NCBI GenBank assembly: GCA_902769875.1
Contig: CACXQV010000003.1
Span: 1-64,000 of the forward strand
DNA length: 64,000 nt
Direction: 5' to 3'
DNA from: an uncultured Bacteroidia bacterium
Lineage (GTDB): Bacteria > Bacteroidota > Bacteroidia > Bacteroidales > F082
The translations under genes were made by a program, and so were the position numbers. Each line of letters begins with the position of its first letter. Within the stretch, counting starts at the first letter, position 1. Shown here one piece after another: positions 7,518 through 28,086 of this stretch. The notes beneath the pieces were generated by a model. The model searched no databases. It saw only the letters and a program-made list of their open reading frames with translations, and was not told the DNA's origin.

Positions 7518-8711
7518 CTATCTGACGGGCATCTTTAGCGAAGCCATACCGCCGAGGCGGTCATACACCTTTATTATATATAAGCCCGTGGGCAGCGTGG
7601 CGACGTTCACCGTCTCGCTGAGGGTTTCCATCACCATTTGTCCGGCCATGTTGTAGATTTCGGCCTTTTGGAAGCCTTCGGCCTGAATCTGGATTTCGTT
7701 CTCGGCAGGAACGGGATAGACCTTGAAATTGGCCTGGGCGTTCTCGTTTACACCAGTAAGGTCAACATAGGTCATGTCGATTTCAGTGCCATAGAACGTC
7801 TTGGTCGCGGCATTGTAGCCGTATGCCATTTCCAATTCCTCATCACACACAATCCCACCTTCTACTTTCATTGCTGTGCCATTAACGGCATTGCCGTCAA
7901 CATAACTGAACCGGCAAATGATGTCATCCTCCCAAACCGAGCTATTGACCATCCATCCCTGAAGAAGTTTGGAGTCAAAGCAACCCTCATCGTTATAGTG
8001 ATAGATGACTTTCACGAAATTCACCCAAGCGTTGTTTTGCCATAATTCATAAAGAATCTCGGTGACATGCTCATCGAAATCGAGGGTGTAGGTCTCTTTT
8101 TCGTCGTTTTGCCAAGCTCCACCTTGCATATATTGGATAAGCACTTCCAAGGTGTTGCCGGTTCTGGTGTAAGTCCAAAGCTCGTCCGACGACCAATTGT
8201 TGCCGTTCCAGTCCCAATAAAGGACGGTGGTCACATTGCCGTTGTAGTTGTAGACTTCCTTCGTATCGTTCACCCAATTGCCATTTTCCCATTCTTGGTA
8301 AATGACCTCGCTCAGTTCGCCACCTTCGTAGGTGTAGGAAGCGCGGGCATCGTTCTCAAACACTCCGATCTCGTATGCCGACATACCTATAACCTCAAGC
8401 ACATTGCCTGCGAAATCGTATTCGTAATTAATTACATAAAAGTCATTCCAGCCATCGCCTTCGTCCATTTCGGTACGCTCCTCAATAAGGTAAAAGTCAT
8501 ACTCATCGTAAGTGTAAGTGGTGCGATACTTCTCACCGTCAACGGTATGCCAAGCAGCGGTTTGAGGCACCACTGTGGTTTCGTCGCGCACGCCATAGTG
8601 CTTGAGCACATTTTGGGTCACATTCGATTTCAGGTTGGCATTGCGTTGTGCAAAGCCCACATTTCCAAACGCCATCACAAGGACGGCCAAAGTAAAGATT
8701 GTTTTTTTCAT
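7518..8711 (-). CDS. Secreted protein with T9SS type A sorting domain
   Basis: 397 residues. An N-terminal signal peptide (MKKTIFTLAVLVMAFG, cleavage after GFA) and a C-terminal T9SS tail (VYPVPAENEIQIQ, then LPTGLYIIKVYD) indicate export through the type IX system and surface attachment. The middle (about 60-300) has four or five loose repeats of 35-40 residues with the pattern Y-x-W-x-NGNWV/NNWS-x-D-x-x-YTY, resembling the short beta-strand repeats of Bacteroidetes secreted proteins of unknown function. No catalytic motif is seen. It is the last gene of a four-gene operon, 12 bases after the upstream lipoprotein, and is followed by a strong terminator. The function is unknown. Confidence 0.85.
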   Translation of the reverse strand: MKKTIFTLAVLVMAFGNVGFAQRNANLKSNVTQNVLKHYGVRDETTVVPQTAAWHTVDGEKYRTTYTYDEYDFYLIEERTEMDEGDGWNDFYVINYEYDFAGNVLEVIGMSAYEIGVFENDARASYTYEGGELSEVIYQEWENGNWVNDTKEVYNYNGNVTTVLYWDWNGNNWSSDELWTYTRTGNTLEVLIQYMQGGAWQNDEKETYTLDFDEHVTEILYELWQNNAWVNFVKVIYHYNDEGCFDSKLLQGWMVNSSVWEDDIICRFSYVDGNAVNGTAMKVEGGIVCDEELEMAYGYNAATKTFYGTEIDMTYVDLTGVNENAQANFKVYPVPAENEIQIQAEGFQKAEIYNMAGQMVMETLSETVNVATLPTGLYIIKVYDRLGGMASLKMPVR

Positions 8712-8723
8712 TTGTGTAATTAT

Positions 8724-9230
8724 TTAGTTTTTAATGACATCGAAATAATAGTTGTAGCTTTCCCTCACATACTGATGCTGATTGCTGTCAACGCCATAAA
8801 TGGTCTTGCGGGCGTAGCCGTGCAAACGAATCTCGCCCTTGCTGTTGTCGTAAACCGAGGCCGACACCGAATACTCAGTGTTGGAAGTGGAGTGACCATT
8901 TGTCATATTGATCAGGAAATCGTCTTCGTTATGTGAAGGATCGCCCGTAAAAGTCTGGTTGTAGCCTTCGTTGGGGCAATTAACCTTAAACTCAATCGAA
9001 CTTCCCGAATAATGGGAAATGGTGATTTCGGCATCCTTGCAAAGATGGCAATACTCCCCTTCCGTCAAGGCATCGAAGGCATCCGGCAGGTTGGAGAAAC
9101 GATACGTCCCTACGATGTCGGTGTTGGTGTAGCCATAATAGTGGTTCCATTCCGTTTTTTGGGTTTTCCCACACGAAACGAGCATCAAGCCCAAAGCCAT
9201 AAGCATCAGCTTCAAAGTCTTGTTTTTCAT
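8724..9230 (-). CDS. Small lipoprotein of unknown function
   Basis: 168 residues. The start MKNKTLKLMLMALGLMLVSC is a typical lipoprotein signal with the lipobox LVSC, so Cys20 should be acylated and the protein anchored in a membrane. The mature part has a CHLC motif at mid-protein and closely spaced aromatic residues but no domain I recognise. It lies 8 bases after the M1 peptidase and 12 bases before the T9SS gene, in the same operon, so it may serve the same export or peptide-handling process. Function is not assigned. Confidence 0.8.
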   Translation of the reverse strand: MKNKTLKLMLMALGLMLVSCGKTQKTEWNHYYGYTNTDIVGTYRFSNLPDAFDALTEGEYCHLCKDAEITISHYSGSSIEFKVNCPNEGYNQTFTGDPSHNEDDFLINMTNGHSTSNTEYSVSASVYDNSKGEIRLHGYARKTIYGVDSNQHQYVRESYNYYFDVIKN

Positions 9231-9238
9231 TGTTTCCC

Positions 9239-11554
9239 TTATTTGATGATGAGTTTTTCGCTATCCAAAACCGTGCCAGTTTTGTTACGGCGGCTTACGG
9301 TGTACCAGCCACGGGGCAAATCGGAGGTTGAAACCTCGACGCTCTCGGTTTGGCTGAAGCTGATGCGTTTCACTTCCTTGCCTTCGGAATTGAAGATGAC
9401 GATTTGTCCATCGGAAGGCTCGCCCCAGCTCAGACGTGCTTGTCCGTCGGCTGGATTGGGGTACACCTGCATGCGTTTCAAGGGCTCGTGGTGCTCTGCC
9501 TCGCCCAAAGCCTGCTTGTCCCAGGCGGCGATGGCATATTCGCCCGAAGGCAAATTGTCGACGACGAGGCGGCCATGGCGCCATGTGCTGCCCGGATAGA
9601 GCGAATGCGGCATCTCATGCCAAGGCTCTGACGCATTGCGGCGATAAAGCAAGGTGGCCGAGTCGTTTTCGCTGTGGATGATGTCGTCTTCGCTCGAGTT
9701 GGTATAGTCGAACATTCCCGTCACCGTGGCCTCACCGAAATCGTAACGGTTGATGGTCCAGAAGTGTTTGGTCGACATGGCCATGTTGGGGATGAGCGGG
9801 TCGTCGTAGGGACCCACAAAATGATGCTCCACCCCGACAAAGACTGAGTCGGTGAGCGATTCGGCCTTGGCAAAGAAGCTGGCATAGTTCTGTTGCGCGG
9901 TGGTCTTCAGCATCATGTTTTTCTGCAACCTGCCGTCGAGCCAATTGTTGTTGAAGTCGCATACCATACCTATAGGCTCAAAGTCAAGCATTTTCACGGA
10001 GGCGCCTTGCAGCCCGTCCCAGCAAACCGTATCGGTAACCAACTGGAAATCAGGACCGATGAAGGTCACTTCATAAACATTGTGCTGTCCGATGTGGTCG
10101 TCGCCGATGTGCTGGTAACGCAAATCGAGCGTCACCGCATACTGTCCACCCACGGGCGTCACCTCGGCAATGGTCGCGAAAGGATGCGGCATCCCCGAAC
10201 TGTACACATAAGTGTCAAAGAAGCCGTGCATATCGATGCCCGAATAATCGGTGAGTGCATTACAAAGGAGTTCGGAAGTCGCTGTCTGGTAGGCATATTG
10301 CTGGAAGTAGTGGCGCATGGCAGCGAGGAAGTTTTCGCGCCCCATGTAGTTCATCATCGTGTTGACAATGACCGCGCCGCGCTCGTAAACCAGAATGGTG
10401 TTGTAGGTCAAATCCAAGGGCATATTGTTGAGCGGTATCCAGTTGCTTGCGCTGTTGCACCAATTGTTGACGCTGTTCACCTTGGCCGACATGGTGTTTT
10501 GGAAATGCTGCTCACCGTAAACGCCCACCTCGTAGAACACGCCCCAAAACTGCGCGAAGCCCTCGTTGAGCCACATGTCGCCCGCCTCGGCGCAAGTCAC
10601 CAAGTTGCCCGACCACATGTGAGAGAGTTCGTGGGCGATGTATTCCTCGTTGTCGGTCGTGCCGTTCACCACGCTTGACACGATGGCGATGTTGTCGGTG
10701 TGTTCCATGCAACCTTTTTCCGTGACCACATAACCAATACGGTTGAACGGATAGGCACCCATGCTCTCTTCAAAGAAAGCCGCAATCTGCTTGACGTGTA
10801 CCATCGAAGCCGGCACGTTGTTGACTTGGTTGGGCTTGGCATACACCGTAATCGGGATGTCGCGCTCGATGCCGTTGTAGACATCTTCCCAAACCACATA
10901 GTCGCCAACCGCAAAGGAAATATGGTAGGTGGCGATTTCCTGCGGTGTGTTCCAATGCCAAGTGGTGGTGCCGTCGCCGTTGTCAAAGGCATCCACAAGG
11001 ATGCCGCCGCAAATGGCTTTCTTGTCGTTGCTCGCGGTGATGAAAAGGTCGTATGTGGCCTTGTCGGTGAAGTTGTCGACGCAAGGGAACCAAGTCTTGC
11101 CGAGGTTGTGCGGTTGGCTGTCGAAGCCCACGCCGAGGTTGTAGACACGATCAGGGATGCTGTTAGGGGCAGGACGCCACCATTCCACGCCGCCCCAAGT
11201 CTCGCTGAAAGTGGAGCCGCCATAGCGCACGTCGAGGGTGACGCTCTCGCCCGCCGCTATCGGTTCGTCGAAGGTGACGGTCAAAAAGTCGCCCTCCTGA
11301 CCGAAACTTTCCACACCGTAGAAATCGGAGGCCACATCGGTGACAGTGAGGCTCTTCAATTCCAACACGACGGCATTTATGCTCGCAGTGGTGGTGAAAT
11401 CGATGAAGGTCTCTCCTTGCAGCGTGCAGTTGGCGAAATCGAAATCCCAAACGTGGATTTCATAGTGCGTCACATCTATGCCTTCGCCGGCGGTTTGGCC
11501 AATCAGCGAAGACAAGGAAAACAACAACGCAAGTATTACAGAAACTTTTTTCAT
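9239..11554 (-). CDS. Secreted M1-family metallo-aminopeptidase with T9SS tail
   Basis: 771 residues from ATG 11554; the frame extends 20 codons upstream, but only MKKVSVILALLFSLSSLIGQ gives a proper signal peptide. The gluzincin signature HELSH (residues 308-312) is followed 18 residues later by the third zinc ligand in WLNEG (Glu331). The exopeptidase motif normally GxMEN reads GCMEH (about 281-285), an unusual Asn-to-His change. The C-terminus carries a T9SS sorting domain (YPNPADGQARL, DLPRGWYTVS). It probably trims N-terminal amino acids from peptides at the cell surface. It sits 8 bases after the upstream lipoprotein gene and 8 before the next, in a tight operon. Confidence 0.92.
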   Translation of the reverse strand: MKKVSVILALLFSLSSLIGQTAGEGIDVTHYEIHVWDFDFANCTLQGETFIDFTTTASINAVVLELKSLTVTDVASDFYGVESFGQEGDFLTVTFDEPIAAGESVTLDVRYGGSTFSETWGGVEWWRPAPNSIPDRVYNLGVGFDSQPHNLGKTWFPCVDNFTDKATYDLFITASNDKKAICGGILVDAFDNGDGTTTWHWNTPQEIATYHISFAVGDYVVWEDVYNGIERDIPITVYAKPNQVNNVPASMVHVKQIAAFFEESMGAYPFNRIGYVVTEKGCMEHTDNIAIVSSVVNGTTDNEEYIAHELSHMWSGNLVTCAEAGDMWLNEGFAQFWGVFYEVGVYGEQHFQNTMSAKVNSVNNWCNSASNWIPLNNMPLDLTYNTILVYERGAVIVNTMMNYMGRENFLAAMRHYFQQYAYQTATSELLCNALTDYSGIDMHGFFDTYVYSSGMPHPFATIAEVTPVGGQYAVTLDLRYQHIGDDHIGQHNVYEVTFIGPDFQLVTDTVCWDGLQGASVKMLDFEPIGMVCDFNNNWLDGRLQKNMMLKTTAQQNYASFFAKAESLTDSVFVGVEHHFVGPYDDPLIPNMAMSTKHFWTINRYDFGEATVTGMFDYTNSSEDDIIHSENDSATLLYRRNASEPWHEMPHSLYPGSTWRHGRLVVDNLPSGEYAIAAWDKQALGEAEHHEPLKRMQVYPNPADGQARLSWGEPSDGQIVIFNSEGKEVKRISFSQTESVEVSTSDLPRGWYTVSRRNKTGTVLDSEKLIIK

Positions 11555-11562
11555 AGAACGAT

Positions 11563-12135
11563 TTATTTTTGATTGATGACAGATTTGCTTCCAATGAAGA
11601 CGGGATTCGTGCATATCGCTTCCGTTTGAATCACATTGCTTTCGTGCAAGGCGCGGTCGAGGATGCGGATTTCGAATTTGATGGTATCGTTGGGCGACAG
11701 CGGGTTTTGCACCGTGAGCTTATACTCGATCTTGCCCGAAATGGCCTTCGGCTCTTCCGAGTCGCGCAAGCGGCGGAAACGCGCGTTGAATGTCACCGTG
11801 TCGAACGATTGCGTCTGCGGGTTCCAGCTCAGCAGCGGCGTTTTCACAAACTGCCCATTGACCGATCTCAGGTAGTCGACCACCATATTATAATAATGTG
11901 CGTCGTTCAGGCCGAATGGCGGCAGCGTGTCGGAGTCGTCAAGGCCGAGGTCGCCGTCGCCGTCAGTGTAAGAGAAAACCACGACACCCTCACCACTGAA
12001 AGTGCTGTCAGGATTCATCAGATAAGTGAAACCTTCGTAGGCAATCTTCGACTCCACAGGATACTCCACGGGCTTTTGGCAGGCCACCGCCGCCAAGGCC
12101 AAAAAAAGAAGCCCTATCAGTTCCTTGATTTTCAT
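11563..12135 (-). CDS. Lipoprotein of unknown function, first gene of the M1 peptidase operon
   Basis: 190 residues from ATG 12135 (the frame begins 10 codons earlier, but MKIKELIGLLFLALAAVAC is the proper lipoprotein signal, lipobox AVAC). The mature part has an acidic DGDGDLGLDDSD stretch that could bind calcium, then beta-rich sequence (SGKIEYKLTVQNPL). It resembles small Bacteroidetes lipoproteins of unknown role. It is the promoter-proximal gene of the operon, and its stop lies 8 bases before the M1 peptidase start. Confidence 0.8.
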   Translation of the reverse strand: MKIKELIGLLFLALAAVACQKPVEYPVESKIAYEGFTYLMNPDSTFSGEGVVVFSYTDGDGDLGLDDSDTLPPFGLNDAHYYNMVVDYLRSVNGQFVKTPLLSWNPQTQSFDTVTFNARFRRLRDSEEPKAISGKIEYKLTVQNPLSPNDTIKFEIRILDRALHESNVIQTEAICTNPVFIGSKSVINQK

Positions 12136-12176
12136 CTCATCAATCCAAGTTGGTCGACACTTCACATTTGAGGCGG

Positions 12177-12212
12177 TAAAAGTACGAATTTTTGGCGAAA
12201 TGGGCGCAACAA
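12177..12212 (-). promoter_or_regulatory. Candidate promoter of the 12135-7518 operon
   Basis: On the minus strand a -7 box TACTTTTA (12177-12184) is preceded 22 bases upstream by TTGTTG (12207-12212). The last base differs from the TAnnTTTG consensus. Transcription would start about 35 bases upstream of the lipoprotein ATG. Confidence 0.4.
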
Positions 12213-12294
12213 TAATCGATTTGAGTTTTTCTTGATTTTCAGCAAATTAACAACCATCGTTCAAAAAAATATCGTGGAAAAGTGTGGAAAAGTG

Positions 12295-12323
12295 TTGACT
12301 TGTTCACAAATGTTGTATCTTTG
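12295..12323 (+). promoter_or_regulatory. Promoter of the zeta-like kinase gene
   Basis: TTG (12295-12297), an 18-base spacer, then the consensus -7 box TATCTTTG (12316-12323), about 55 bases before the ATG. This is a good fit to the Bacteroidetes primary sigma factor promoter. Confidence 0.6.
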
Positions 12324-12377
12324 CCGCCAGTTTTGGCACGAAATTGGCCATAACAGAACGAGCAGAAAACATTTTAG

Positions 12378-12971
12378 ATGCCGAATTTGTATATCATATC
12401 AGGCTGCAACGGAGCAGGAAAGACGACCGCCTCATTGACGGTTTTGCCCGAGACGCTCCAATGCAAGGAGTTCGTCAATTGCGACGAAATCGCCAAAGGC
12501 CTCTCTCCACTCAACCCCGACGGAGCCAAGGTTGCCGCAGGCCGCCTGATGCTCTCGCGCATCAAGACCCTCATCGCTGACAAAGCCGACTTTGCCATCG
12601 AGACCACTTTGGCCGCAAAATCCTATCACGCCCTCATCAAGAAAGCCCGCGAGGAAGGCTACAAGGCCAGCCTCATCTATTTCTGGCTGCAAAGCCCGGA
12701 ATTGGCCATCAAGCGCGTGGCGGAGCGCGTGAAACACGGCGGCCATCATGTGGACGACAGTATCATCCGCAGGCGCTATCGTGCAGGCATCAAGAACCTT
12801 TTCAACCTTTATTGCCCCGTCGTCGACTACTTCCTGTTCATCGACAACAGCATTATGCCCTCCGAGGTCATCGCCGAAGGAAACATCAAATCCATCAAGT
12901 TCTATAACGAAGAAAAATTCAAAAAAATCAGACAATATGACAACAGTAACAGTGAATGCAAAGAAGAATGA
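12378..12971 (+). CDS. Zeta-toxin-like P-loop kinase
   Basis: 197 residues. The start MPNLYIISGCNGAGKTT holds a Walker A loop (GCNGAGKTT, 9-17). An acidic NCDEIAKG follows at about 34-41, and FAIETTLAAKSY at about 72 is the substrate-side motif of the zeta-toxin/AAA_33 group. The later positively charged helix SIIRRRYRAGIKNL also fits. Zeta toxins phosphorylate UDP-N-acetylglucosamine; related chromosomal Bacteroidetes proteins are not all proven toxins. Its 3' end overlaps the next small gene by 35 bases, suggesting a translationally coupled pair, and a terminator follows. It may instead be a small-molecule kinase. Confidence 0.8.
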   Translation: MPNLYIISGCNGAGKTTASLTVLPETLQCKEFVNCDEIAKGLSPLNPDGAKVAAGRLMLSRIKTLIADKADFAIETTLAAKSYHALIKKAREEGYKASLIYFWLQSPELAIKRVAERVKHGGHHVDDSIIRRRYRAGIKNLFNLYCPVVDYFLFIDNSIMPSEVIAEGNIKSIKFYNEEKFKKIRQYDNSNSECKEE

Positions 12972-13137
12972 AGTTTCGTCCTTCACCAAGAAATTGATGA
13001 GCGGCCTCGACCTCTCGATGCAACGCCTTCTCACCATGCGCTGCCGCCACAACGGCACCTTCTGCTTCTGCGACGCCAACGGCAACATCTACACCGTGAA
13101 AGCCAAGGAAGTCAGAGCCATGATGGAACAGGAATAA
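12937..13137 (+). CDS. Small protein, candidate antitoxin of the zeta-like kinase
   Basis: 66 residues beginning MTTVTVNAKKNEVSSFTKKL, in a different frame from the kinase gene and overlapping its last 35 bases. The TTVTVN start resembles small Bacteroidetes antitoxin-like proteins (inference from memory). The rest has a basic middle and a CRHNGTFCFCDANGN segment with three Cys. The order kinase-first, antitoxin-second is unlike classical epsilon/zeta operons. It ends 28 bases before a strong hairpin terminator, so the two genes form a closed unit. Confidence 0.65.
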   Translation: MTTVTVNAKKNEVSSFTKKLMSGLDLSMQRLLTMRCRHNGTFCFCDANGNIYTVKAKEVRAMMEQE

Positions 13138-13165
13138 AAGCTATTCGTCACATAGAAAAACCAAG

Positions 13166-13204
13166 CCACAATTTGCAGGTTGTCTGCGAATTGTGGTTTT
13201 TTTT
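13166..13204 (+). terminator. Terminator after the zeta-like pair
   Basis: A 13-bp stem with one G-T pair (13166-13178 with 13184-13196), a 5-base loop and a run of eight T (13197-13204). It lies between the plus-strand pair and the convergent minus-strand AlbA_2 gene. Confidence 0.85.
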
Positions 13205-13215
13205 GTGCAATTGTC

Positions 13216-14373
13216 TTAACCCTCTTTTCGAGGTATCCGAACTATAAACTGTTCCCCATCTTTGTCGTTAATAAGTTCAAGATTGGGTTCTGCTTTGATT
13301 GCACGGCGAACACCCGTCCCCACTCCACGATAATTCATTAACCTCGAAACATAAGTGACAATCAATGGATTACGAACAATAGCGTTCCCCATCTTAATAT
13401 TCTCAATTGTCAAACTATTTGGCAAAGCCCCAGGGCTGATTATTTCAACTCTATCATCAAAAATAAAAACCCTGATAGGCGAATTCTTTGAATAATCTCT
13501 ATGTGTCAAAGCATTCTGTATCAGTTCTTCCAATGCAACAGGTGAAATTTCAAGTTTCCCAACGGAGTTAAAGTTTTGGCCTTGTTGGGTATGCATCAAA
13601 TTCCTATTGAAAAATGCCATACATTTTTCGAACATTTCCGGTATCGTTCCAACAATGTCTTCACTATCCCTGTAATCAATGCCTTCCATTTCATTACCGA
13701 AAAACGAAATCGCTTTAATGCAAAAAACAGGGCGATACCGTTGTGGATTTGGAGAGAAGAACAATAGGCCTCCCAAAGTTAATTCTTTATTCTTCAATAG
13801 ATTGATATTTCTGTATAGTTGTTCATCTGGCAAATCTATATCATCACTGATTTTGGAAAGATACTCTTTTACCCTGTTTTCATCAATATCATTAATGGAA
13901 GTGTTGGGGACAATCATTTCGTCCACATACAACATACCACTATGTTGGAACAACCTGATTTGTTCATTATTATCCGTTAGTATACGCTTGTCGCCTCCCT
14001 GTTTAATCCAAATACGGCCTTGCTTGTCTTTGTATGGTTTTGAAACTCCTTCGTCAATATTTACGACAAGGATGTTCTTCTCTTTGCCCTCGTCAGAAAT
14101 CTGGACAACTTCAGTTGTGATATAAATCGATGGCTTCACAAAATCCGTTGCTATCGTAGCCAATTTGTTTCCAGTATCTTGCAACTGTTTATAATCAAGG
14201 CCGACGATTGCCCCTGTTTTATCGACGACACCGAACAATATCACTCCTCCTATTGAATTAGACATTGCAACCATTTCCGCTGCAATTCCATCATTGCTGT
14301 CCAACAATTGCTTGAACTGTACTTTGCTGGTTTCTCCTTGGCCAATCAAACCAAGTAATTCTAATGCGTCCAT
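13216..14373 (-). CDS. AlbA_2 / HATPase_c_4 domain protein (RecG-like regulator family)
   Basis: 385 residues. Residues 14-58 (ETSKVQFKQLL...GVILFGVVD) match the Schlafen/AlbA_2 putative nucleic-acid-binding domain. Residues 280-320 (ELIQNALTHRDYS, then VEIISPGALPNSL) and GVGTGVRRAI (351-360) match the GHKL-type ATPase module that follows AlbA_2 in COG2865 proteins. The usual C-terminal winged helix is missing, so it is a short version. It starts 6 bases after the PHP-ATPase gene and is very probably co-transcribed with it. Such proteins often occur in mobile and defence islands, as regulators or effectors; the role here is inferred only from that association. AT-rich compared with its neighbours. 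Confidence 0.85.
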   Translation of the reverse strand: MDALELLGLIGQGETSKVQFKQLLDSNDGIAAEMVAMSNSIGGVILFGVVDKTGAIVGLDYKQLQDTGNKLATIATDFVKPSIYITTEVVQISDEGKEKNILVVNIDEGVSKPYKDKQGRIWIKQGGDKRILTDNNEQIRLFQHSGMLYVDEMIVPNTSINDIDENRVKEYLSKISDDIDLPDEQLYRNINLLKNKELTLGGLLFFSPNPQRYRPVFCIKAISFFGNEMEGIDYRDSEDIVGTIPEMFEKCMAFFNRNLMHTQQGQNFNSVGKLEISPVALEELIQNALTHRDYSKNSPIRVFIFDDRVEIISPGALPNSLTIENIKMGNAIVRNPLIVTYVSRLMNYRGVGTGVRRAIKAEPNLELINDKDGEQFIVRIPRKEG

Positions 14374-14379
14374 ATTGTA

Positions 14380-17022
14380 TTACCTCCAAATGTTATATAT
14401 GTATTTTCTTCTATCAAAAGCGTCTTTCCCGCCTTCCATAATATCCACAATAGACTTTTGAATGATAGGAGTATCTATCGTTCCCTCTTGCAGTTCAATT
14501 GCAGAACCATCTTCAAAAGAACAAGAAACGATTTTTTCGCTATCGCCAAGAACTGGAATGTTTGCGTTATGGGTGGCAAAGACAAATTGCATTTTCCCTT
14601 TTAATTTCAGAATTTCTTTGATCACTTCATCATATATTGTCTGATTATCCAAATCATCTTCAGGCTGGTCTATAATGAGAATATCATTGTCTTTTTGGGC
14701 AAGCAAAAACAGGATTAATGCAGAAGCCCTTTGGCCAAGAGAATGTTTCGAGAGAGGTTTCCCTTTATAGTTTATTGTAACTTTGTCTTTCACCCTAAAT
14801 GTCAGCAACTCATCCAAATGTTCCATTAAACGATCATAGAACAGATGGTATGCAGAACTGGCAATTTGCGACAACTTGTCCTTGTCACGATAAATCTCAA
14901 TAAAATCGGAAAACTTCTCTACAATATTATTATAGGTGGTTTCTCTAATGTTTGTTCCCCTGAAAACAGACTTGATCTTTTCAAGCATTTGATTTCGCTG
15001 TCCCTTGAACTCTATTGTAATTTCCAAATTGCTGTTCGATTTGTTGATCTTTTCGGTTTCATCCTTCAAAATATCAAATTCCGACAGCCAAAGTTCGTTC
15101 AACTCTTGCAACAATTTCTGCAGTTTCAGTTCAAGGGCTTTCTGCTTTTCAATTTGCTTATTAATCTCCTGTAACCTCAATTGTGAAGTATTTAAAGACC
15201 TGTTTAGAGCCAAGAAAGAATCAGGATTCAAAGTATCAGAATTGATTTCTCGTTTTATCTTTGCAAACTCTTCTGCCATTTCCTCCTTCTTGACATTATA
15301 ATGCTCAATCGCTTTGTTGTAGAGTTCAATTGCTTTTTGGTTCTTTGATGATGCCTCCTTTAGTGCTTCGTAAGACTGTTTTGCTTCTTGCAATGCTTTG
15401 TTTGCCATATCGAAAATATCAGCATTGCTTTCCGAAACAATTGGATTTGCAAACAACTGTTCGTAGTCGGCAATGATGGAATTAACATCATTTATATATG
15501 AATCCAATCTTTCGCGTGTCCTGATCAACAACAAACCATCCTGTTCGAATTGGGTTTGTTGCCTTAACTTTTCCTCTACACCGGCTTTTTTGAAGTACTC
15601 AATCTTCTGTTGCGCATTCTTGATCGTATTTTCCGTCTCTTCCTTTAGTGACTGTAAATCTTTAATCTTTTTAATCTCAGATATCACACTAACTATTTCA
15701 TTCTTTTTATCGTTTATTTCACGGATTTTGGATTGCAGTCGGTTTCCGACCAGTCGTTTCAGCAAGTCCGATTCAAAATCATCTTTCTTGTTCGACAAGT
15801 CTTTTTGGCCGAAATATATTGGTGTGCCCAAAATGGCCTCAATGGAACAATCTTTTATTTCATTGGTCTCATTATCAAAAATGTTTTCCTTCTGGCCATA
15901 TATCTTCTCTATGCGATACTCTCGTCTGTCTTGTTTGTTAACCACGACAACTATTACCTTGCCCCCACTACCCAAGATGTAAGAAATCAAATCATTCTTG
16001 TAACCAGCATCTGCCGACGAACCAGACAGATTGATTCCCAAAGCATACCTCAATATTTCAATAATTGATGACTTCCCACTACCTCTAATTCCGATGAAAC
16101 TATTCAGTTCAGATGAAAACCCAATAACTTTTCCGTCTAGTTTTCCGCCAATAAATTGAATAGATTTTATGTATGAGTTAGATGTAGCCTGGTCAGTTTC
16201 CGAAACTCTATGTTCCTTGTCTATCAAAGCATATTTCAGAGCCTCAAAACTGAAATCCCCTAATTTAATATAAGTCCTTTTCTCCGTGTCATTTTGTTTC
16301 GAGGGCTTGCCCGCCGCTTCTAATGTCTTGCAATCAGACCCTTCTACAAAAGCAGGCAATACCCCGCCAAACCATTGACGATATGTATCAAGCCTATCAT
16401 AAGTGCGCACTTTTTGCAATCCAAGAACAAATTTTTTAAACAATTCATTTTTAGCAAGTTGCTGTATCCTTCCACCCTCTAATTCGTTAAAAAATCCGCT
16501 GTTTTGTTCAATATGAGCTAATACGATGAACGAGTCTCTACCTTGATTGCGGTGTTCATCAAGTTTCTTCAGGAGAGTTTCCAAACTATAATTGCATCTC
16601 GTATTATCGTTTTCTCTATTGGCAATACCTTCAAAAGCAGAGGTGAGAAACTGATTTATATAGTTTTCGTTATTTGGCAGCCAAGACTTGTCATCAAAAG
16701 CGATAAGGGTATGGATTCCGTTTGCACCATCATTCACGGACAATTCAACTCCTGCGACAAGCCAAATACCTTCTTTTTTTGCAGTTTTTTTCAACGCTTT
16801 ATACTCATCAACGTCAAACTTGTTGTGGTTCGTAATAACCCCAACTTGGATGCCCTCTTTTTTTAGTTGTTGAATATAGTTTGAATAATAGAAGTTCACA
16901 TCCCCATTATACACAAATTCTTTATCGGCTTTCGTATGAAGATGAAAATCAGCACGCAGCCACTGTGAGCCATTTTTAAACAAATCAAGTTTTTTTGTTT
17001 CTATCTTTTGAGAATCATCCAT
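14380..17022 (-). CDS. PHP-domain ABC/SMC-type coiled-coil ATPase (TrlF-like), candidate defence protein
   Basis: 880 residues. The N-terminal PHP phosphoesterase domain shows DFHLHT (25-30), TNHN (64-67), a metal-ligand Glu in GVELS (93), His170 (LAHIEQN) and Asp230 (EGSDCKT). An ABC/RecF-type ATPase follows: Walker A GIRGSGKSS (311-319), Q-loop YFGQKD (Gln406), signature SLGQ (761-764), Walker B ILIIDQPEDD (781-790) and switch His818 (ATHNAN). Residues 430-690 are a long Lys/Glu-rich coiled coil. The layout agrees with the family I remember as TrlF-like AAA ATPases. PHP domains can be nucleases, so a Rad50/SbcC-like or Abi-type nuclease is plausible. It is followed at 6 bases by the AlbA_2 gene and preceded by a 42-codon ORF. 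Base composition is clearly AT-rich, suggesting transfer. Confidence 0.88.
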   Translation of the reverse strand: MDDSQKIETKKLDLFKNGSQWLRADFHLHTKADKEFVYNGDVNFYYSNYIQQLKKEGIQVGVITNHNKFDVDEYKALKKTAKKEGIWLVAGVELSVNDGANGIHTLIAFDDKSWLPNNENYINQFLTSAFEGIANRENDNTRCNYSLETLLKKLDEHRNQGRDSFIVLAHIEQNSGFFNELEGGRIQQLAKNELFKKFVLGLQKVRTYDRLDTYRQWFGGVLPAFVEGSDCKTLEAAGKPSKQNDTEKRTYIKLGDFSFEALKYALIDKEHRVSETDQATSNSYIKSIQFIGGKLDGKVIGFSSELNSFIGIRGSGKSSIIEILRYALGINLSGSSADAGYKNDLISYILGSGGKVIVVVVNKQDRREYRIEKIYGQKENIFDNETNEIKDCSIEAILGTPIYFGQKDLSNKKDDFESDLLKRLVGNRLQSKIREINDKKNEIVSVISEIKKIKDLQSLKEETENTIKNAQQKIEYFKKAGVEEKLRQQTQFEQDGLLLIRTRERLDSYINDVNSIIADYEQLFANPIVSESNADIFDMANKALQEAKQSYEALKEASSKNQKAIELYNKAIEHYNVKKEEMAEEFAKIKREINSDTLNPDSFLALNRSLNTSQLRLQEINKQIEKQKALELKLQKLLQELNELWLSEFDILKDETEKINKSNSNLEITIEFKGQRNQMLEKIKSVFRGTNIRETTYNNIVEKFSDFIEIYRDKDKLSQIASSAYHLFYDRLMEHLDELLTFRVKDKVTINYKGKPLSKHSLGQRASALILFLLAQKDNDILIIDQPEDDLDNQTIYDEVIKEILKLKGKMQFVFATHNANIPVLGDSEKIVSCSFEDGSAIELQEGTIDTPIIQKSIVDIMEGGKDAFDRRKYIYNIWR

Positions 17023-17050
17023 AGTCTTATTCCTATTAAATCATATCGTC

Positions 17051-17179
17051 TTATCCTCTCTCATTTGCAAAGCAGTATCGGTTTTTCAACTGGCTGGAAT
17101 CTTCGTCAAATACCTCAGGCATAAGCGATTGCAGTATCTTTATCCGTTCCTCTTGCGGTGTTTGCGATTTTCCGTCCAT
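17051..17179 (-). CDS. 42-residue ORF at the head of the PHP-ATPase operon
   Basis: ATG at 17179, stop at 17051, 28 bases before the PHP-ATPase start and in the same direction. The peptide is acidic and hydrophilic (QEERIKILQSLMPEVFDED at residues 10-27). The ERIKILQSLMPEVFDE part faintly recalls the N-terminus of type III restriction-modification Mod proteins, so it may be the leftover start of a deleted mod gene. It could also be a genuine small operon member or leader peptide. Two TAnnTTTG boxes lie immediately upstream. Confidence 0.45.
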   Translation of the reverse strand: MDGKSQTPQEERIKILQSLMPEVFDEDSSQLKNRYCFANERG

Positions 17180-17200
17180 ACATTTTCCCAATTTACCGAG

Positions 17201-17218
17201 CAAAATTAGGCAAATTTA
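17201..17218 (-). promoter_or_regulatory. Candidate promoter(s) of the PHP-ATPase operon
   Basis: On the minus strand two adjacent -7 boxes are visible, TAATTTTG (17201-17208) and TAAATTTG (17211-17218), 22-32 bases upstream of the 42-codon ORF. No convincing -33 TTTG at the right spacing was found. Confidence 0.45.
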
Positions 17219-17324
17219 TTGTTGAATAATAATTTCAGGCTCAATTTTCCCATTTTTGGCTCAGAATGGTAACACATAAGGCCTTTCCCCCGAAAAATCG
17301 GGGGAAAACGGGTGTCGTAGGTGT

Positions 17325-17640
17325 CTACCTGAAACAGGGCCTGTGTGGTGTTGTATAGCCGCATAGGCCTTCCTTGCCAATTTTGCCCGAGCGCAAGCGC
17401 AACTCCTTGACGATACTCAGCAAGGCGGTCTCCGTGTTGGAGAAATCGGCCTTCACCGTGCTGATGTCGCTCATGGTACAGACGTATTTGAATCAGGAAG
17501 CCATGTCGCCAACAAAGAAACCATTGTCGGCAACGAAGTCCGTCGACGATGCCTTGATGCTGCAACAGGCGGGGTTGGTTCTCGCGATGTTGAGTTAGGC
17601 TTGGGCCTGCGTCACATTCTTAGAAGTTGCCTTAATAAAT
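17325..17640 (-). pseudogene. Decayed coding frame of unknown origin
   Basis: One minus-strand frame stays readable across the region with two in-frame stops (TAA and TGA): pieces read KNVTQAQA, then LNIARTNPACCSIKASSTDF...GDMAS, then from ATG 17474 MSDISTVKADFSNTETALLS...IGKEGL. The codon pattern looks like decayed protein sequence rather than random DNA, but no family is recognised. A small GC hairpin (17287-17304, CCCCCGA/TCGGGGG) lies just beyond. The remaining bases between 17180 and 17325 hold only the promoter boxes. Confidence 0.35.
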
Positions 17641-17755
17641 GATCATCAAAAACACGGAAACGGAACGTGTTCATTACTCGATCACTATCTTTTGGGTTCT
17701 GACATTGTCCCCATCAATCAAACGCAACACATACACGCCCGCCGTCATCCCTGAT

Positions 17756-17785
17756 GTAGAGACGTTTCCTGAAACGTCCCCCCTA
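17756..17785. repeat. Palindromic repeat inside the lipase-like T9SS tail
   Basis: Arms GACGTTTC and GAAACGTC (17761-17778, CT between), with flanking GTAGA at 17756. In the protein it encodes the SRRGDVSGNVSTS part of the sorting domain. The paralogous tail at 24292-24313 carries the same element with a longer stem. Confidence 0.7.
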
Positions 17786-18174
17786 CGCGAAACGACAATG
17801 CGACCTAACATGTCCACGATTTGCAGAGATGTTTCGGGGGGCGTTTCTACCAGCAAACGGATTTCCCCGTTGCTGATATAGGCAAACGGCACATCGGGTT
17901 CACAGGCGGCCTCGTCTGCAAAGAACACCAACTTGAACCGCGATTCATAGTCCGTCGTCTTGGCAGTGAAGGTGTAGGATGGCTTGAGGGATTGCGGGGC
18001 TTCGCCCGCAATGAGGTTCTGCCTTTGCGGAATGAGGGTTTCGGGGTGGAGCAGGTCAACATCCGCGCCAGTCAGGTTATCAATCAAGTGCAGATAGGAC
18101 AATTCCACGCCTTCGGGATTGACCGTCAGCGTGTAGGTGCCGTCTTTCGTGGCCTTGAAATTAATCGGCATTGA

Positions 18175-18200
18175 AGATACGGTGCAGGCACCGTCTCTAC
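18175..18200. repeat. Palindromic repeat encoding an extra peptide
   Basis: Arms ACGGTGC (18179-18185) and GCACCGT (18188-18194) within a GTAGAGACG-type element. It encodes GRDGACTVSS, exactly where the otherwise similar C10-protease tail has only DGIGE, so it is an in-frame insertion relative to the paralogue. Confidence 0.6.
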
Positions 18201-21200
18201 CCACACATGCGATGGCATATTCCTTGCCGTTCTGCGGGATGTAGATGCTGGCGTTCTGCTTGCCAAAATAGAATTTGCCCAACTGTGTGCCCTCGTTGAA
18301 ACTGACGATGGCATTGTCCAATGTGGTCGCTGAGCCAGTCGAAGTGCCGCGCATGTTGGACATAGGCTGACTCAACGCGATTTGCAGGTTGCCGTTTTTG
18401 GTTAGGCCTGATGCAACCGGTGCCGTGGTGGTGAAGGTGGCGGTTTCGCTGTTGCTTGTGGCTTCCACGACAACACCGTAGCAGGGCGAGATGGCGGTCG
18501 CGATTGATTCTGAAGTAGTCAAGACTGCGGTGCCATCCTGATTCAACGTGTAATAAGGCCTGTCGATGTAAGCCGCACGCGGGAAGGGGTTGCCCGCGAG
18601 GTTGAAGCCTTGTTGAAGCGTCACCTCTGTTGTGTCGCTCAGGTTGAACGAGCCGTTGAAGGTCAGAGTAACACCTTCTTGTTTGGCATAGAGGTAACCT
18701 TGGCCGTTGGCAATCATGAAGTCGGAAGTGTGTTCATGATAGTTTTCCCATTCCATATCAGCCAACGGGTTGAAACGGTAGAGGTCGTAGTCGTATGAAT
18801 TCTCCTCGATAGAAGTTCCCAAAAGGCCTGTGACATTGTTCGGGATTAGGTCTTCCATTACCGGCGAGGCGATGAAGGCCCAGCCATCAATAGAAACATT
18901 AGGGTTGTCGCTGCTCCAAACCGTAGGGGCTGCCACCGTGCGCACATTGCCTGGAATGGCACCGTCGTTTTCGGTGATGTCGCCGAGGGGACCGAAGGTG
19001 TTGCCAGTCTTGATGTAGCAACCTACGTTGGTGGGGTTGGGGATGTCAGCCACGGTGCAGTTGACATAGTAGTTGCGCTCAAGGTTGCCGCCATTGCTTC
19101 CTGCAACAGCACCATACAAGTTCTTTGTCCTTGGTATCGTTGCCTCGATGACCAAATTGTTGCTCATAATGGCGTTGTTATCACTGACTCCAGCGATGCC
19201 GCCATAGGAATAGGCAGCAAATGTACCTTCACCGGGATCCGTGAAGGTTTTGGTGATGGTACCAGCGAAGGTGCATTGGCTGAGCGAACCCATATTGTAG
19301 CCTGCGATGCCGCCAAGGAACCAGGAGAATTGCGCGGTGCCTTTGATGGTGTCCGTGGATGTGACGTGGCAGTTGGTAACCGTGCCTTCGTTCCAACCCA
19401 CGATGCCGCCCGCCCTTTCACCGTCGACGATATTAGAGTTGGTGAGAACGATGCTTTTCACCTCCGCGCCGCTGCCAAGGTGTCCGAACAAACCGTTATA
19501 ATTGACCACTGTACTGTTGATGCCGCTGATGGTGTATCCTTGGCCATCGAAGTGGCCGTTGAAGACATATTCACCCTGATCAAATATGGTGGCTCCGATG
19601 GCCGTGAAGTTGTCCTCCACATTGGCATCGTATGCGATGTCGGCCATCAGTTTGTAGTATTTGGTGTTGTAATTGCCACTGTTTTCGCTGTTCACACGGG
19701 CAGAAAGCAGGTCGAGTTGTTCGATGGTGTAAATAAGGTAAGCCGTCTCCCAACTTTGGCCGTCGCCCGACCATTCAACGGAGTAGTTGACGGTGATGGT
19801 GACATTGGCATTCGGCATAGTGAATGAATAGACACCATCATCAAAAGCCATTTCTGTTGCCGTGCCGCCTTCAGGCGTATAAGTGACGGTGCCGATGATA
19901 TAGCCATCCGAAACCGTGAAACTGAGGTTCACGTTGTTGCCTTGGCCTGCAAAAAGCATATTGTCATACAGGATGCCTGTGCCGTAGCGTGTGACGCCGC
20001 TGACATTGTACTCGGTGGCATCGCCTGCGAAAGCCATGGTGACATCCTCACTGCCTGTGATGCTACGGGCCCGCATTCCCTGCTCGGTGCCGAGGGGTTG
20101 GGTGTAATAGCAGTTGGTGAAGGTCGCCACCCCATCACTTGGGATGCCAACAAAAGTGTAGGCGTTAGTGTTTCCAACCGTAATATTGGCAGGAGCAAAA
20201 AGGCAGTCCGTGAGATTGGCACTTGAACCCGTTGTACCTGTTTTCCATCCTATCAATCCGCCGCAGCCTGTGCTGCTCTCGCCAAGGATACTACCCGTGA
20301 AAACGCATCCGATAAGGTCGGCATTGATGGTGTAACCCACCAATCCGCCATGTTCTGCGGAGCCGCTATAGGTCGAGTTGATGATGACATCGCTCTTCAC
20401 ATTCTCTAACGTAAGCTTGCCCGTGCCGTTGCGTCCCACCACGCCGCCGGCATGTTGTTTGGAAGTGGTGATGGTTCCTGTGGTAATGAGGTTCTTGATG
20501 GTGGCGCCGTAGGTATAGGCGAAGGGAGCGGCGAACTCGGAATATTCGTTAAGGTTGAATGTCAAGGTGTTTCCGCCGCCGTCGAAGGTGCCGTTGAATG
20601 TAGCGTAAGAACTCGAGCCTGTTTTATCGCCCACCATGGAGGTGATACTGATGTCATTCGTCATCTTGAAGAACTTGCCACTGTAGTTGTCGCCATTTAT
20701 TACGCGGTTGGCGAGGAGAAGCCACTCGTCAACGGTGCTGATCAGCCATGGGTCATCTTCGGTGCCAGTGCCATCCCATTCGAATGACCCCGTGTCGATC
20801 CAATGGAAGTACGCCCCTCTTTGGTACATGGTCAACAAGAACGAGGTGCCTGCAACCAGATGGTCGGAGGAGCTAAAGGTGTTGTCCACACGATAGATGA
20901 CGTTTTCGCCTTCAGGATGCGCATCGCGGAAGGCAAGGTAGTTGCCGTAAGGCACCACCATATCTTTCTTCGAGTGCATAAACATGATGCGGTGGCTCGG
21001 CTCCCAACCCGTGCAGACATTGTTGTTGGCCAAGGCACGGTGCATGGCTTGGTAGGCGTTGTCGGGTGTGGCAGGCACATTGTTGAAGTTGCTGGGATTA
21101 CTCAAATAATTGTAAAAACCCTCGGTGAAGACCTTGCTGAGGTCGACCCACACGGCCTTTTCAGTTCCAAGATAGGCTGGAACCGTATGTTGTGTAAACA

Positions 21201-23901
21201 TCTCGTTCATATTTGCCGGTGCGGGATAGGCAATGCCGTTCACGGTGGTGGTGCCATTGTTCAGTTGTTCAATCCATGCCGTGACAATCTGCTTGTTGGT
21301 CACGGTTTTGCTGTTGAGCCAGTTGAGGATGCCGGTGGCGAGGAAGTCCTCGGTGAGGTAATCGGTAATCTGATAGTTGGTCATGGCGGGTTCGCTGTCG
21401 ATCATACCCTTCAGAATCATTGGGAGCACTACGGGCAAGGTGGCTTGGCCTGCACGGTGGTCGGTGGTCACATCGTAGCTGGTGCCGTTGTCTTCCATAT
21501 AGTAGCGCAAGGTGGCGATGAGGTCGTAGGGGCCGTCGCCGCAGAGGGTGCCACGGAAATGCAACTCATCGCTGAGGTTGTGTTGCTCAATGTGGCGTTG
21601 CACGGCCAATGCCACGGCACCGCCTTGCGAGTAGCCCATGCTGAAGCTGCGCCAATACTCAGCCAGCTGGGGTGCAAGGCCACCATTGACCAACTCTTGG
21701 TAAACCAATAAGCCGAAGCGGGTACCGTCAACCACCTGCTTCGCCGTCAGTTCTTCAGCAAGGTAGGGATGCGTCGAACCAGAGGATATCCCATAGCCCT
21801 CATAGTCGGGCATGATGACGACGCTTTTCGAGATTAAATCTTCGTAAGGATATTCGTGCCTACCCGAAATAAGTGCTTGAAGCAGCAAATAGTCGGGGAA
21901 ATCATAACTGATGGTGTTCGTGATACGGGTGGGACACTGGGCATCGGCGGTGATGGTGTAATGGCTGTTGATAATCACCGAATTGTTGACATCGTCCGTC
22001 ATTTGAGCATCTGGCTTCCAAAAAGCCAACAGCGACGAGAGTGTGATTGGCTCTCCCGCCGCATTGGTCGACGGGTAGTTGAACTTGTAAAACGACCGTT
22101 TTTGTTCCGTGAAGAGCAACTCATACTCAATGGATAACGCCACAGTAGCTGTGATGACGACATCAGCATTGGGCATGTTCAGCACATTACCGTTGAGGGT
22201 GACTCCATTAACGAAATACGAAACCATGTTGAATTCGGGGATGGTACCTGAATAGCTCAGATGGAGGACCACTTGGTCGCCATTGCCGGCATAGAGCACA
22301 TCGTTGTATTTGAAGCCGATGCCGTAGCTGGTGATACCGCTTTCGTCGTACACAGTGGCGGATGCAGAGACGTTCTCGACGGTGACATTCTCGCCGGCGC
22401 TGATGCTGCGGGCACGCTTGCCCTGCACGGTGCCGAGAGACTGGGTGTAGTAACAGTTGGTGATTTCAACCACACCATCAGTATGGTTATTGGCAATGGT
22501 GTAGGAGCCATCGGTGCCTACCGTGACGCTGGTGGGAGAGAAAAGGCAGTCGATAAAGACAGCTTTTCTGTTTTGATCTGATTCATACGTCTTATAAACT
22601 AAGAGGCCGCCACAATGAGTTGAATTTGTACCAATCAAACTGCCGGTGAAGGCACAACCGATGATGTCGGCAGTGATGGCGTAGCCGACCAATCCGCCGT
22701 GCTCGGCGGAGCCGCTGTAGGAAGAGTTGATGGTCACGTTGCTTTTCACATTCTTCAAAGTGAGTTTGCCACTGCCGTTACGTCCCACCACGCCGCCGGC
22801 ATGTTTATTCGAAGTATTGATGGTTCCAGTGGTAATAAGATTCTTGATGGTGGCGCCATAGGTGTAGCAGAAGGGACCACAAAATTCGGCATTGGTGGTA
22901 TGGTTGAAGGTAAGGGTGTAACCGTCGCCGTCGAAAGTGCCGTTGAATGTATTGTAAGTATCCCCGTCAGGATGATTGCCCACCATGGTAGTGACCTCGA
23001 TGTTGTCCATCAGCTTGAAGTAGGTGCCGCTGTATGTGGTGCCGTTGTTCACATTGGCGGCCAATGTATTCCAATGCCCTGTGCTGGCAATCTGGTAGGG
23101 GTCACTCACTGTGCCGCTGCCGAGCCAATAGATGAGGTGGGCTTCGCCTTCTCTCAGGATGACGACGGAGCCCTTGTCGGAATGGAACACGGTGGACGGG
23201 TCAGTCGAACTGTTGTTGGCGGAATAGCCCGAGGTGAAAGCGCCAATGCCATCAGCAAGGGTCACGCCGATGTTGGCATTGGAGGTGAAGGAGCCATCGA
23301 CAGTGATGGTCTTGCCGCTGGTCAGATACACATTGTTGCTGCTGCCGTTGGCGGTGTTGTTGTATATCTTTGGGCTGCCGCTCATGACGAGGCTGCCATT
23401 GTTGTAGATGCCGCCGCCGTTGGAGGCATTGCCGCCAGTGATGGTGCCGCCATACATTTCGAGCGTGCCGGCATTGTAGATGACACCGCCGTTGTGGGTG
23501 GTGCTTCTATCCCCTTTGATGGTGCCGCTGATGATTTCGAGCGTGCTACCGCTCTCGATGTAGAGTGCGCATCCATCGCCGCCCTGATAACGACCTTTGA
23601 TGATGCCTGAGCCTGTTGTGGAGTTGTCTTTGATTTGCAGCGTCCAGGGGCTCACCACGCGGATGTTATAGTTGGCGGTAAGCGTTCTGCCATTGAGGTC
23701 GAGGCTGAAGTTCTTGTTGAAGACGAGTTGATCACTCTCAATGTTAATGTTGTCCTCCAAGATGATGGTGGTGCCTCCAGGCTGTTGTGAGATTGCTTCA
23801 CGCAACTCGTTTTCGGTGTCAACGTGTACTTCTTATGCCCAAGCCGTCGACCCGAAGGCTACGAGGGCGAGGAGGATGATTAGGATAGATGATTTTTTCA
23901 T

Positions 23902-24142
23902 TTATTTGTAGATTTTGTTTGTTGTTTGTCTTGTAGTTGCCCCCATAGGCCACGCCCGCCGTAGGTCGCGACCTACGGTTTTTGGGGTGTCGTCCCATCG
24001 GGAGGTTGCCCCCGCTTCGCTTCGCGTCAAAGCGAGCGAAGCGCGGCAACCCTGACAATCAGTCGCACTTGAGACTGTTGCGGTCAGAAACATATCTGAT
24101 TTTGAGGGTATTGGCCTACTTATTTTGAAGCCGCAAAAGTAC
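23902..24142 (-). other. Leader of the lipase-like gene, with palindromic repeats
   Basis: Between the signal-peptide ATG (23901) and the upstream terminator there is no gene. It holds a perfect 20-bp palindrome CCGTAGGTCGCGACCTACGG (23959-23978), a large hairpin (24004-24010 GGTTGCC with 24045-24051 GGCAACC, plus inner GCTTCGCT/AGCGAAGC-like arms) and a -7 box TACTTTTG on the minus strand (24134-24141). Transcripts would thus carry a structured leader of about 225 bases. Confidence 0.55.
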
Positions 24143-24182
24143 AAAAAAATGGAGACGATTCTCGAATCGTCTCCATTTTTTT
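24143..24182 (-). terminator. Terminator of the C10 protease gene
   Basis: A perfect 18-bp stem (24143-24160 with 24165-24182, core ATGGAGACGATT), loop CTCG, with T/A runs on both ends, 25 bases past the protease stop. It could work in both directions. Confidence 0.9.
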
Positions 24183-24206
24183 GATTATAATGGACTAATA
24201 GTCAAA

Positions 24207-27755: not shown

Positions 27756-28086
27756 CTCAATTTGTTATATTGTTTAGTCCTTAATAACGGTTACATATTT
27801 CACGGTGCAAAATTAGTTAATTTTAGTTGATCGCAACAAGAAAATTTTCAAATATTTAATCTTGCAGGTTCGGAAAGTCATTCGCCTTTGCAAATGAAAC
27901 CATTTCAGGGCATTATATCCGCAAAAAAGGTGCTGCTATTGGCAGTTTTTAAGAATAAACATCACTTAGTCCCGGCAACGGTAGAATCAAATTGGTTTTC
28001 ATAGGCCATTGCTTGTTTCTTTTCCACAGATTTGTTGGGGAGCGCAAATGAAAAAACTGTATATTTGCAGCCAAAAGGATTGAAAA
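27756..28086. promoter_or_regulatory. Divergent promoter region of the C10 protease and fucosidase genes
   Basis: For the minus-strand protease: TAATTTTG (27808-27815) with TTGTTG-type -33 18 bases upstream (27834-27839). For the plus-strand fucosidase: TATATTTG (28060-28067), 20 bases before the ATG. The bases between (about 27840-28055) contain no ORF or recognised site. Confidence 0.6.

Follow-up and report, generated by a model that had tools for sequence, protein, structure and literature searches.

The TrlF–TrlG gene pair of a Bacteroidales genome: a candidate growth-arrest module found within restriction–modification operons

Introduction

What might a pair of adjacent genes be doing when both remain full length while the operon that holds their closest relatives has almost vanished around them? 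The question is raised by a window of 64,000 nucleotides (the whole stretch of DNA analysed here, positions 1 to 64,000 of contig CACXQV010000003.1, assembly GCA_902769875.1, from an uncultured Bacteroidales bacterium of lineage F082). On its minus strand trlF (14380..17022, 880 amino acids) is followed, after 6 bases, by trlG (13216..14373, 385 amino acids). An initial annotation, made from the letters alone, had seen there a candidate defence operon, pairing a PHP phosphoesterase–ABC ATPase with an AlbA_2/HATPase_c_4 protein in a combination that it did not recognise. Both frames are indeed open at this place. The combination is not new: it is, by its family matches, the known but little studied TrlF–TrlG module, published in Photorhabdus as part of the temperature restricting locus (TRL), trlR-trlF-trlG (PMC7554251).

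We propose, with a probability of about 0.6, that trlFG is a self-sufficient, ATP-driven growth-arrest module, carried as cargo by restriction–modification (RM) operons and probably acting against phages in that it brings the infected cell to a halt. TrlG would most likely be the arresting part, through a Schlafen-type AlbA_2 domain that may bind nucleic acids, perhaps tRNA, and that its GHKL ATPase domain would control. TrlF, with its SMC/Rad50-like ATPase and PHP domain, would most likely sense DNA or damage and hold back or license TrlG. In the window genome the pair would have entered within an operon of the type III RM kind, mod-trlF-trlG-res, which would later have lost res and kept only 42 codons of mod, while trlFG stayed open behind the old upstream region of mod.

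Two proteins with intact motifs

TrlF scores 522.5 bits against the NCBIfam model NF045780 ('TrlF family AAA-like ATPase'), the cut-off of which is 350. Its PHP domain (16327..16965, minus strand; residues 20–232, limits set by eye) gives a Pfam match of 20.9 bits, under the cut-off of 26.4, but residues H27, H29, H66, E93, H104, H170 and D230, the candidate metal ligands, are all invariant in an alignment of 57 rows. Pfam finds the two halves of an ABC/SMC ATPase as AAA_23 and AAA_21. The N-terminal half of the head (15793..16170, minus strand; residues 285–410, limits again by eye) carries the Walker A motif GIRGSGKSS and Q406; a segment of long helices, predicted coiled coil from the secondary structure of the AlphaFold2 (AF2) model, covers residues 416–662 (15037..15777, minus strand); the C-terminal half (14380..15027, minus strand) carries the signature HSLGQRA, the Walker B motif IIDQPEDDLDN and H818. 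K317 of Walker A, Q406, S761, G763 and Q764 of the signature, D785 and E788 of Walker B and H818 are invariant in the same 57 rows, L762 being conserved in at least 90% of them, so that the earlier statement that metal-binding and ATPase residues look intact is borne out.

TrlG combines SLFN_AlbA_2 (PF04326, residues 14–132, 73.9 bits; 13978..14334, minus strand) with HATPase_c_4 (PF13749, residues 298–361, 51.9 bits; 13291..13482, minus strand), the N-box, E283/N287, standing just N-terminal to the latter match. In a family alignment of 76 rows E283, N287, G315, G350 and G352 are found in 76/76, while at the positions of the Schlafen motif, assigned by eye and not by superposition, E14 and Q19 are each found in 75/76 and D51 in 66/76. 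Schlafen nucleases have a three-acid catalytic motif (E, E, D) that begins E-x4-E; TrlG has E14-x4-Q19. It is 41–42% identical to three plasmid TrlGs.

The AF2 models have a confidence (pLDDT, predicted local distance difference test) of 86 for TrlF and 90 for TrlG. Among the 50 Foldseek matches listed for each, TrlF resembles the heads of Smc, Rad50 and RecF, the ATPases of JetABC, Lamassu and PARIS (AriA), and the PHP phosphoesterases 3e38 and 3o0f; TrlG resembles DIP2311 (3lmm), the N-domains of Schlafen proteins, kinases of the GHKL type and, at the end of the list, the tRNase domain of SAMD9. The AlbA_2 fold is one shared with tRNA-cleaving proteins. We put the low TM-scores of both models down to domain movement and partial matches. 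Two other assignments were dropped. A pAgo/Aga-type system, proposed by PADLOC for TrlG, has only the AlbA_2/HATPase part in common with it: the match covers profile positions 42–395 of 1121, and Pfam shows no PIWI/MID part such as a prokaryotic Argonaute system has. Menshen was set aside as well: none of the Nsn models of PADLOC matched either protein at E ≤ 0.1, and the literature search listed nothing relevant.

The pair among its relatives

A scan of genome contigs, from which the best 80 of 447 TrlF relatives were kept, showed trlG, in the same orientation, as the frame immediately 3′ of trlF at 77 of the 80 loci, or 75 of 78 once L010 (a duplicate of L009) and L039 (which scores the same as L038) are removed; some of the 77 are cut by contig ends, and in L012 trlG lies in two frames. 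Two of the unpaired loci (L011, L020) have room for a trlG yet lack one, and the third (L081) stops at the contig end. Members of the TrlF family occur in 44 of 395 genomes sampled from the phylum Bacteroidota at E ≤ 1e-20, 36 of them over the cut-off. Thirty of these phylum loci were inspected; six, the window included, exceed 1000 bits on our own TrlF profile, and all six have TrlG (5/5 for those other than the window), the window copy being the only full TrlF in its genome. TrlF stands without TrlG on a Listeria plasmid and on a contig of the viral collection (L194).

Several loci deserve mention in their own right. A plasmid copy from Bergeyella (L003) has both genes split over several frames, and at L187:3904-7847 a protein of 913 amino acids with a weak AriA match directly precedes a TrlG-like gene, for which it is a possible alternative partner. 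The same or nearly the same locus is labelled as belonging to Paludibacteraceae and Lachnospiraceae metagenome-assembled genomes (MAGs) (L009/L010), another both to a Tissierellales MAG and to a genome from the order to which the window belongs (L014/L089); since near-identical loci carry different organism labels, some of these labels are probably binning errors.

Restriction–modification operons as carriers

The nearest relative, from the same genus (L008, the scores of which equal those of locus L088 in genome G057), shares the flank of the window pair, its positions 21598–16480 matching window 8053–13207 at 77%. After this flank come res, trlG, trlF and mod: by blastn, PADLOC and Pfam the pair lies there inside a type III RM operon. 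Little of that operon is left in the window. Residues 1–48 of the L008 Mod match window 17179–17057 by tblastn (64.6%, E 4.8e-10), in a minus-strand stub of 42 codons closed by a stop (17051..17179); the region upstream of mod is kept behind it (17180..17266, minus strand), window 17101–17266 matching L008 8179–8012 at 76% by blastn. Res has no match in the window, which thus falls short of the complete Mod plus Res of a type III system. The decayed frames that had been noted upstream are thereby explained in part, as the N-terminal stub of mod; for the stretch 17267–17674, between the mod upstream region and a large secreted protein, Pfam gave nothing for the one frame scanned (17206–17565). 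The block is AT-rich as described, with a G+C fraction of 0.37 in trlF and 0.39 in trlG against 0.54 in the flanking M1 peptidase gene. In L008 the values are 0.35–0.36 for trlFG, 0.45–0.47 for Mod and Res, and 0.55 for M1. As cargo, trlFG thus exceeds its carrier operon in AT content.

This arrangement is found well beyond the genus. At 18 of the 80 loci trlFG has beside it a type III Mod, a type III Res or both, all of one family; 10 of these loci have long matches on both sides. The Mod and Res queries match nothing else at these 18; weaker Mod-like matches lie near the pair in L034 and L077. One gene separates trlG from res in L074, and in L031 the res frame ends short near the contig end. 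PADLOC recognises a type III methyltransferase in the nearest 5′ gene at 12 of 65 loci and a type III restriction endonuclease in the nearest 3′ gene at 11 of 61; among 68 control genes (of 117) more than 6 kb away, no type III model appeared in the 25 families listed of 59. The recorded hosts of the 18, mostly MAGs in which binning errors are likely, belong to Bacteroidota, Neomarinimicrobiota, Thermodesulfobacteriota, Ignavibacteriota, Cloacimonadota, Mycoplasmatota, Bacillota, Planctomycetota and Nitrospirota, two being without a phylum. In a quickly built tree of 83 TrlF rows the phyla are mixed. A single origin of the type III embedding was rejected on that tree, which needs 12 label changes, 11 of them forced by starred branches; having long branches and rows of odd composition, it cannot separate gains from losses.

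Loss of the carrier is recurrent as well. At four further loci (L015, L024, L027, L043) trlF and trlG are likewise full length and the surrounding RM genes truncated or frame-shifted, with breakpoints that differ among themselves and from those of the window. Nor are trlFG the only genes to be lodged in this way: Mod of the same family occurs in 29 of the 149 genomes of the window's order, and the 12 loci opened hold, between mod and res, trlFG in L158 (the same locus as L035) and L154 (at a contig end), RhuM in L152 and, by sequence likeness, L157, AbiD in L153, Bro-N proteins in L155 and L163, a HerA-like protein in L159, a HEC-01 pair in L160, a TPR protein in L162, and nothing in L156 and L161.

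Type I operons carry the pair too. In four of the eight plasmid regions opened (L006, L190, L191, L192) trlFG lies in a type I operon with prrC, the full order, seen in L192, being hsdR-trlF-trlG-hsdS-prrC-hsdM; L006 follows this order, its prrC lying in two frames, L190 stops within prrC at the end of the record, and L191 is without hsdR and part of trlF. A contig of the viral collection (L193, one of 27 loci) reads hsdM-hsdS-prrC-like-trlF-trlG-hsdR. PrrC was identified by PADLOC in L192 (473 bits) and by similarity in L006, L190 and L191. The L192 type and L193 differ in gene order, which suggests separate assembly; their two PrrC proteins are 33% identical. In four further genomes the pair is described between hsdS and hsdR, with upstream of it RptR, a repressor of a phage defence island (PMC12255303). 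Plasmid pYR3 carries all three TRL genes (PMC7554251), and its gene of 79 amino acids upstream of trlF, which from its place and length would be the published TrlR, matches RptR (9r2z, E 2e-34).

The window site itself was compared among congeners. A full TrlF is present in one of 59 congeners (G057). Eleven congener regions around the M1 peptidase gene were chosen from 60 genomes with a match: the flank match stops at 13202–13211 in nine, while contig ends cut off the remaining two, and an inverted repeat with a T-run after the zeta genes (13166..13204, plus strand, by eye) lies where the conserved flank ends and the insert starts. The site is empty in five (L165, L166, L168, L172, L174); L170:5595-13811 has mod-[type IIG enzyme + 227-amino-acid protein]-res; L164 has other genes, and the contig ends in L167 and L169. 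The zeta-like gene next to the pair is real (PF06414, 41 bits). It had been taken for the mark of a defence island and must be dropped as such, for it is chromosomal backbone, present at the orthologous site in all 11 regions fetched. What speaks for a defence candidate is the company of type I and type III RM genes, PrrC and RptR in the relatives.

Two side observations concern this flank. The zeta-toxin-like protein (12378–12971) is 92–99% identical in the 11 congener regions, against 64–80% for M1 and 67–84% for a lipoprotein-like product, for all its likeness to a toxin. The gene that adjoins the zeta terminator in several congeners (fucosidase-like, by eye) lies at about 28134–29679 in the window; because of this the 17.7–28.1 kb block with a GLUG/Por-tail protein (within 17674–29679) would also be inserted or rearranged.

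An arrest gene in Photorhabdus

Growth arrest has been published, as far as we found, for Photorhabdus only (PMC7554251). There a temperature of 36 °C induces the operon, and its level increases late in growth; deletion of the operon allows growth at 36 °C, and restoring it brings the arrest back. trlG mutants grow at 36 °C, and among the heat-tolerant clones trlG was changed in 20 of the 30 listed, with no mutation in trlF; of the other ten, one was a sequencing failure, one (S10) was mutated in fur, and for the remainder no trlG change is given. By our own count from that paper these clones represent 16 distinct trlG events, two of which (JA, JB) come from sequencing trlG alone. If a hit in either gene relieved the arrest, and hits fell by length, the chance of finding 16 of 16 in trlG would be about 5e-9, or about 6e-8 for 14 (by hand arithmetic). 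As all counted events fall in trlG, which is improbable by length, TrlF seems dispensable for triggering the heat arrest; its part may lie in restraining TrlG, or elsewhere.

Eight of the 11 published arrest-abolishing missense positions have the identical residue in the window TrlG, and seven of these columns are identical in at least 70 of 76 rows. The mapping goes, by residue and number, through the TrlG of an E. coli plasmid (L006) and not the Photorhabdus protein itself, with the numbers left as they are up to about residue 60 and shifted by −1 beyond it, an offset picked because it fits 10 of the 11 missense positions; the window numbering, used without offset, fits 7 of 13 published positions.

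Alternative explanations

Several observations weigh against our proposal. The scan started from a five-row query in which four rows were paired and kept the best-scoring 80, a choice which makes pairing look commoner than it is and keeps out of sight any intact RM genes with a broken trlFG next to them. Among the phylum loci the 24 weaker TrlFs have a weaker TrlG-like gene in place in six cases, a divergent one in one and none in 17; and two more TrlG-like genes stand in the window genome with no TrlF nearby (G000:C22:10404-11564 and G000:C24:38101-39255, L183 and L184; 557 and 479 bits). Occurrence of a single gene with no link to defence genes, which the initial annotation had named as a point that would tell against a defence operon, is thus answered in part: close relatives of TrlF are paired, distant ones mostly (18 of 24) are not, and TrlG-like genes also occur alone. 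At 62 of the 80 loci no such type III genes were seen, though many contigs are short, and the distant control genes include single defence matches (a type I restriction endonuclease, SduA), so that the wider neighbourhood is not a clean background. Two of the 11 congener regions (L171, L173) have efflux-like genes, by eye, at the insertion site, which is therefore not specific to defence. The second Schlafen acid being glutamine in 75 of 76 TrlGs argues against plain cleavage of the Schlafen type. The Photorhabdus pair lies between polA and dsbA, outside any RM operon, and heat-linked arrest is the only phenotype tested there (PMC7554251); as far as its main text goes, the word 'phage' is absent. 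Among the open-licence PMC papers that the searches listed we found no phage assay of the pair, nor the pair named as a defence system; a paper on the defences of the V. cholerae WASA lineage (PMC12137116) has no occurrence of TrlF, PHP, Schlafen, AlbA, RNA-binding or histidinol.

Could the pair guard its RM enzyme, silenced by it and firing when a phage disables it, as PrrC does with EcoprrI? PrrC is silenced by the linked RM enzyme and activated by the phage peptide Stp (PMC2610378), trlFG is placed alike inside type I operons, with PrrC in the same operon, and TrlF has an SMC/Rad50-like ATPase as PrrC and RloC do. Strict silencing of this kind ranks below our proposal because RM genes were lost around full-length trlFG at five loci, the window included. 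A toxin silenced by its partner should not outlast it unless inactive or silenced in trans by another RM enzyme, while in the window and the four other loci both genes are full length although most of Mod and/or Res is gone. No Mod of this type III family was found elsewhere in the window genome (83% complete) at E ≤ 1e-60, and Photorhabdus TRL is without adjoining RM genes (PMC7554251). We consider this guard role unlikely.

It is no likelier that TrlFG is a physiological brake on growth, used in heat or stationary phase, and that its linkage to RM genes reflects shared mobility. The Photorhabdus behaviour just described is what such a brake would show; the patchy spread of TrlF among congeners, the mixture of phyla on the tree, the carriage by plasmids and the recurrent linkage with RM genes, PrrC and RptR are not what one expects of it. 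Equally improbable, in our opinion, is that the window copy is an inactive relic. The reduction of Mod to 42 codons and the disappearance of Res would fit, but both frames run to full length and retain the conserved residues of the ATPase, metal and GHKL sites, and between the window and L008 the proportion of nonsynonymous differences (pN) is low (0.13 for trlF and 0.22 for trlG) against saturated synonymous differences (pS), though most of the divergence may predate the loss. Saturation makes dN/dS unusable as a ratio here. The window copy would rather be still active. Least likely is an accessory role in DNA repair or recombination, after the old 'recG-like' and Rad50-like labels: the SMC/Rad50 head and the Pfam description of HATPase_c_4 as a putative RecG C-terminal domain favour it, while Pfam reports no helicase domain in TrlF or TrlG, the linkage is to defence, and a RecG-like protein, by eye, is encoded elsewhere in the window genome (L183).

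We return to the self-sufficient arrest module, and tentatively, somewhat short of even odds, extend it. Type I and type III RM operons might share a slot that takes up arrest modules time and again; TrlFG would be one of these, comparable to PrrC/RloC but autonomous, and at times side by side with PrrC in one operon. The heat arrest of Photorhabdus would then be a side effect of an anti-phage module under RptR control, and the window module would have outlived its RM carrier. As far as the literature was searched, three things are new: the type III embedding and its recurrent loss, the co-occurrence with PrrC in one operon, and the match to RptR of the gene at the TrlR position of pYR3. The proposal links three strands kept apart in the papers: a heat arrest locus of an insect pathogen, an unnamed RptR-linked pair and the PHP-ATPases of the Ppl type. 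If this is true, catalogues of defence gain a widespread two-gene candidate and a patchy, plasmid-borne 'temperature' locus is explained. The mod-res interior, as a cargo slot, becomes a practical hunting ground for further defence genes.

Comparison with known systems

The closest known system is Photorhabdus TRL, with the same succession of TrlF and TrlG and TrlG domains at 14–128 and 298–365 (PMC7554251), against 14–132 and 298–361 in the window. It differs in that the window pair belongs to Bacteroidota and not Proteobacteria, has a mod remnant upstream and is without TrlR/RptR nearby: the pYR3 gene, used with phmmer at E ≤ 1e-4 on loci L001 to L096, where L001 is the window pair with flanks of 1.5 kb, matches L004 only. 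The 'RNA-binding protein + AAA-like ATPase' pair linked to RptR, placed between hsdS and hsdR in four genomes, is by its description the same gene pair; it is unnamed and untested there, the word 'TrlF' is absent, and in the text drawn on neither type III embedding nor RM loss is mentioned (PMC12255303).

The anticodon nucleases PrrC and RloC are likewise arrest proteins controlled by an ABC ATPase, in or beside RM operons, and the survival of trlFG after its RM genes recalls an rloC that adjoins an hsdR relic (PMC2610378). They differ in being single proteins with a nuclease part of their own, and no PrrC model of PADLOC matched TrlF or TrlG at E ≤ 0.1. The proteins of DarTG2 we take to be unrelated to TrlF and TrlG. 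What is alike is the place, a toxin-type module between hsdS and hsdR under RptR in the RRDM island (PMC12255303).

There remains Ppl, a single-gene anti-phage system that also joins PHP to an ABC/SMC-like ATPase, and from which TrlF differs in falling, with 160 bits, far under the cut-off of 1000 of model NF042955. Ppl is not known to need a TrlG partner. A genome-wide association study ties it to phage resistance in S. epidermidis, by a mechanism said to be undescribed (PMC13152194). On the likeness of the proteins, Ppl would be the nearest named anti-phage relative of TrlF.

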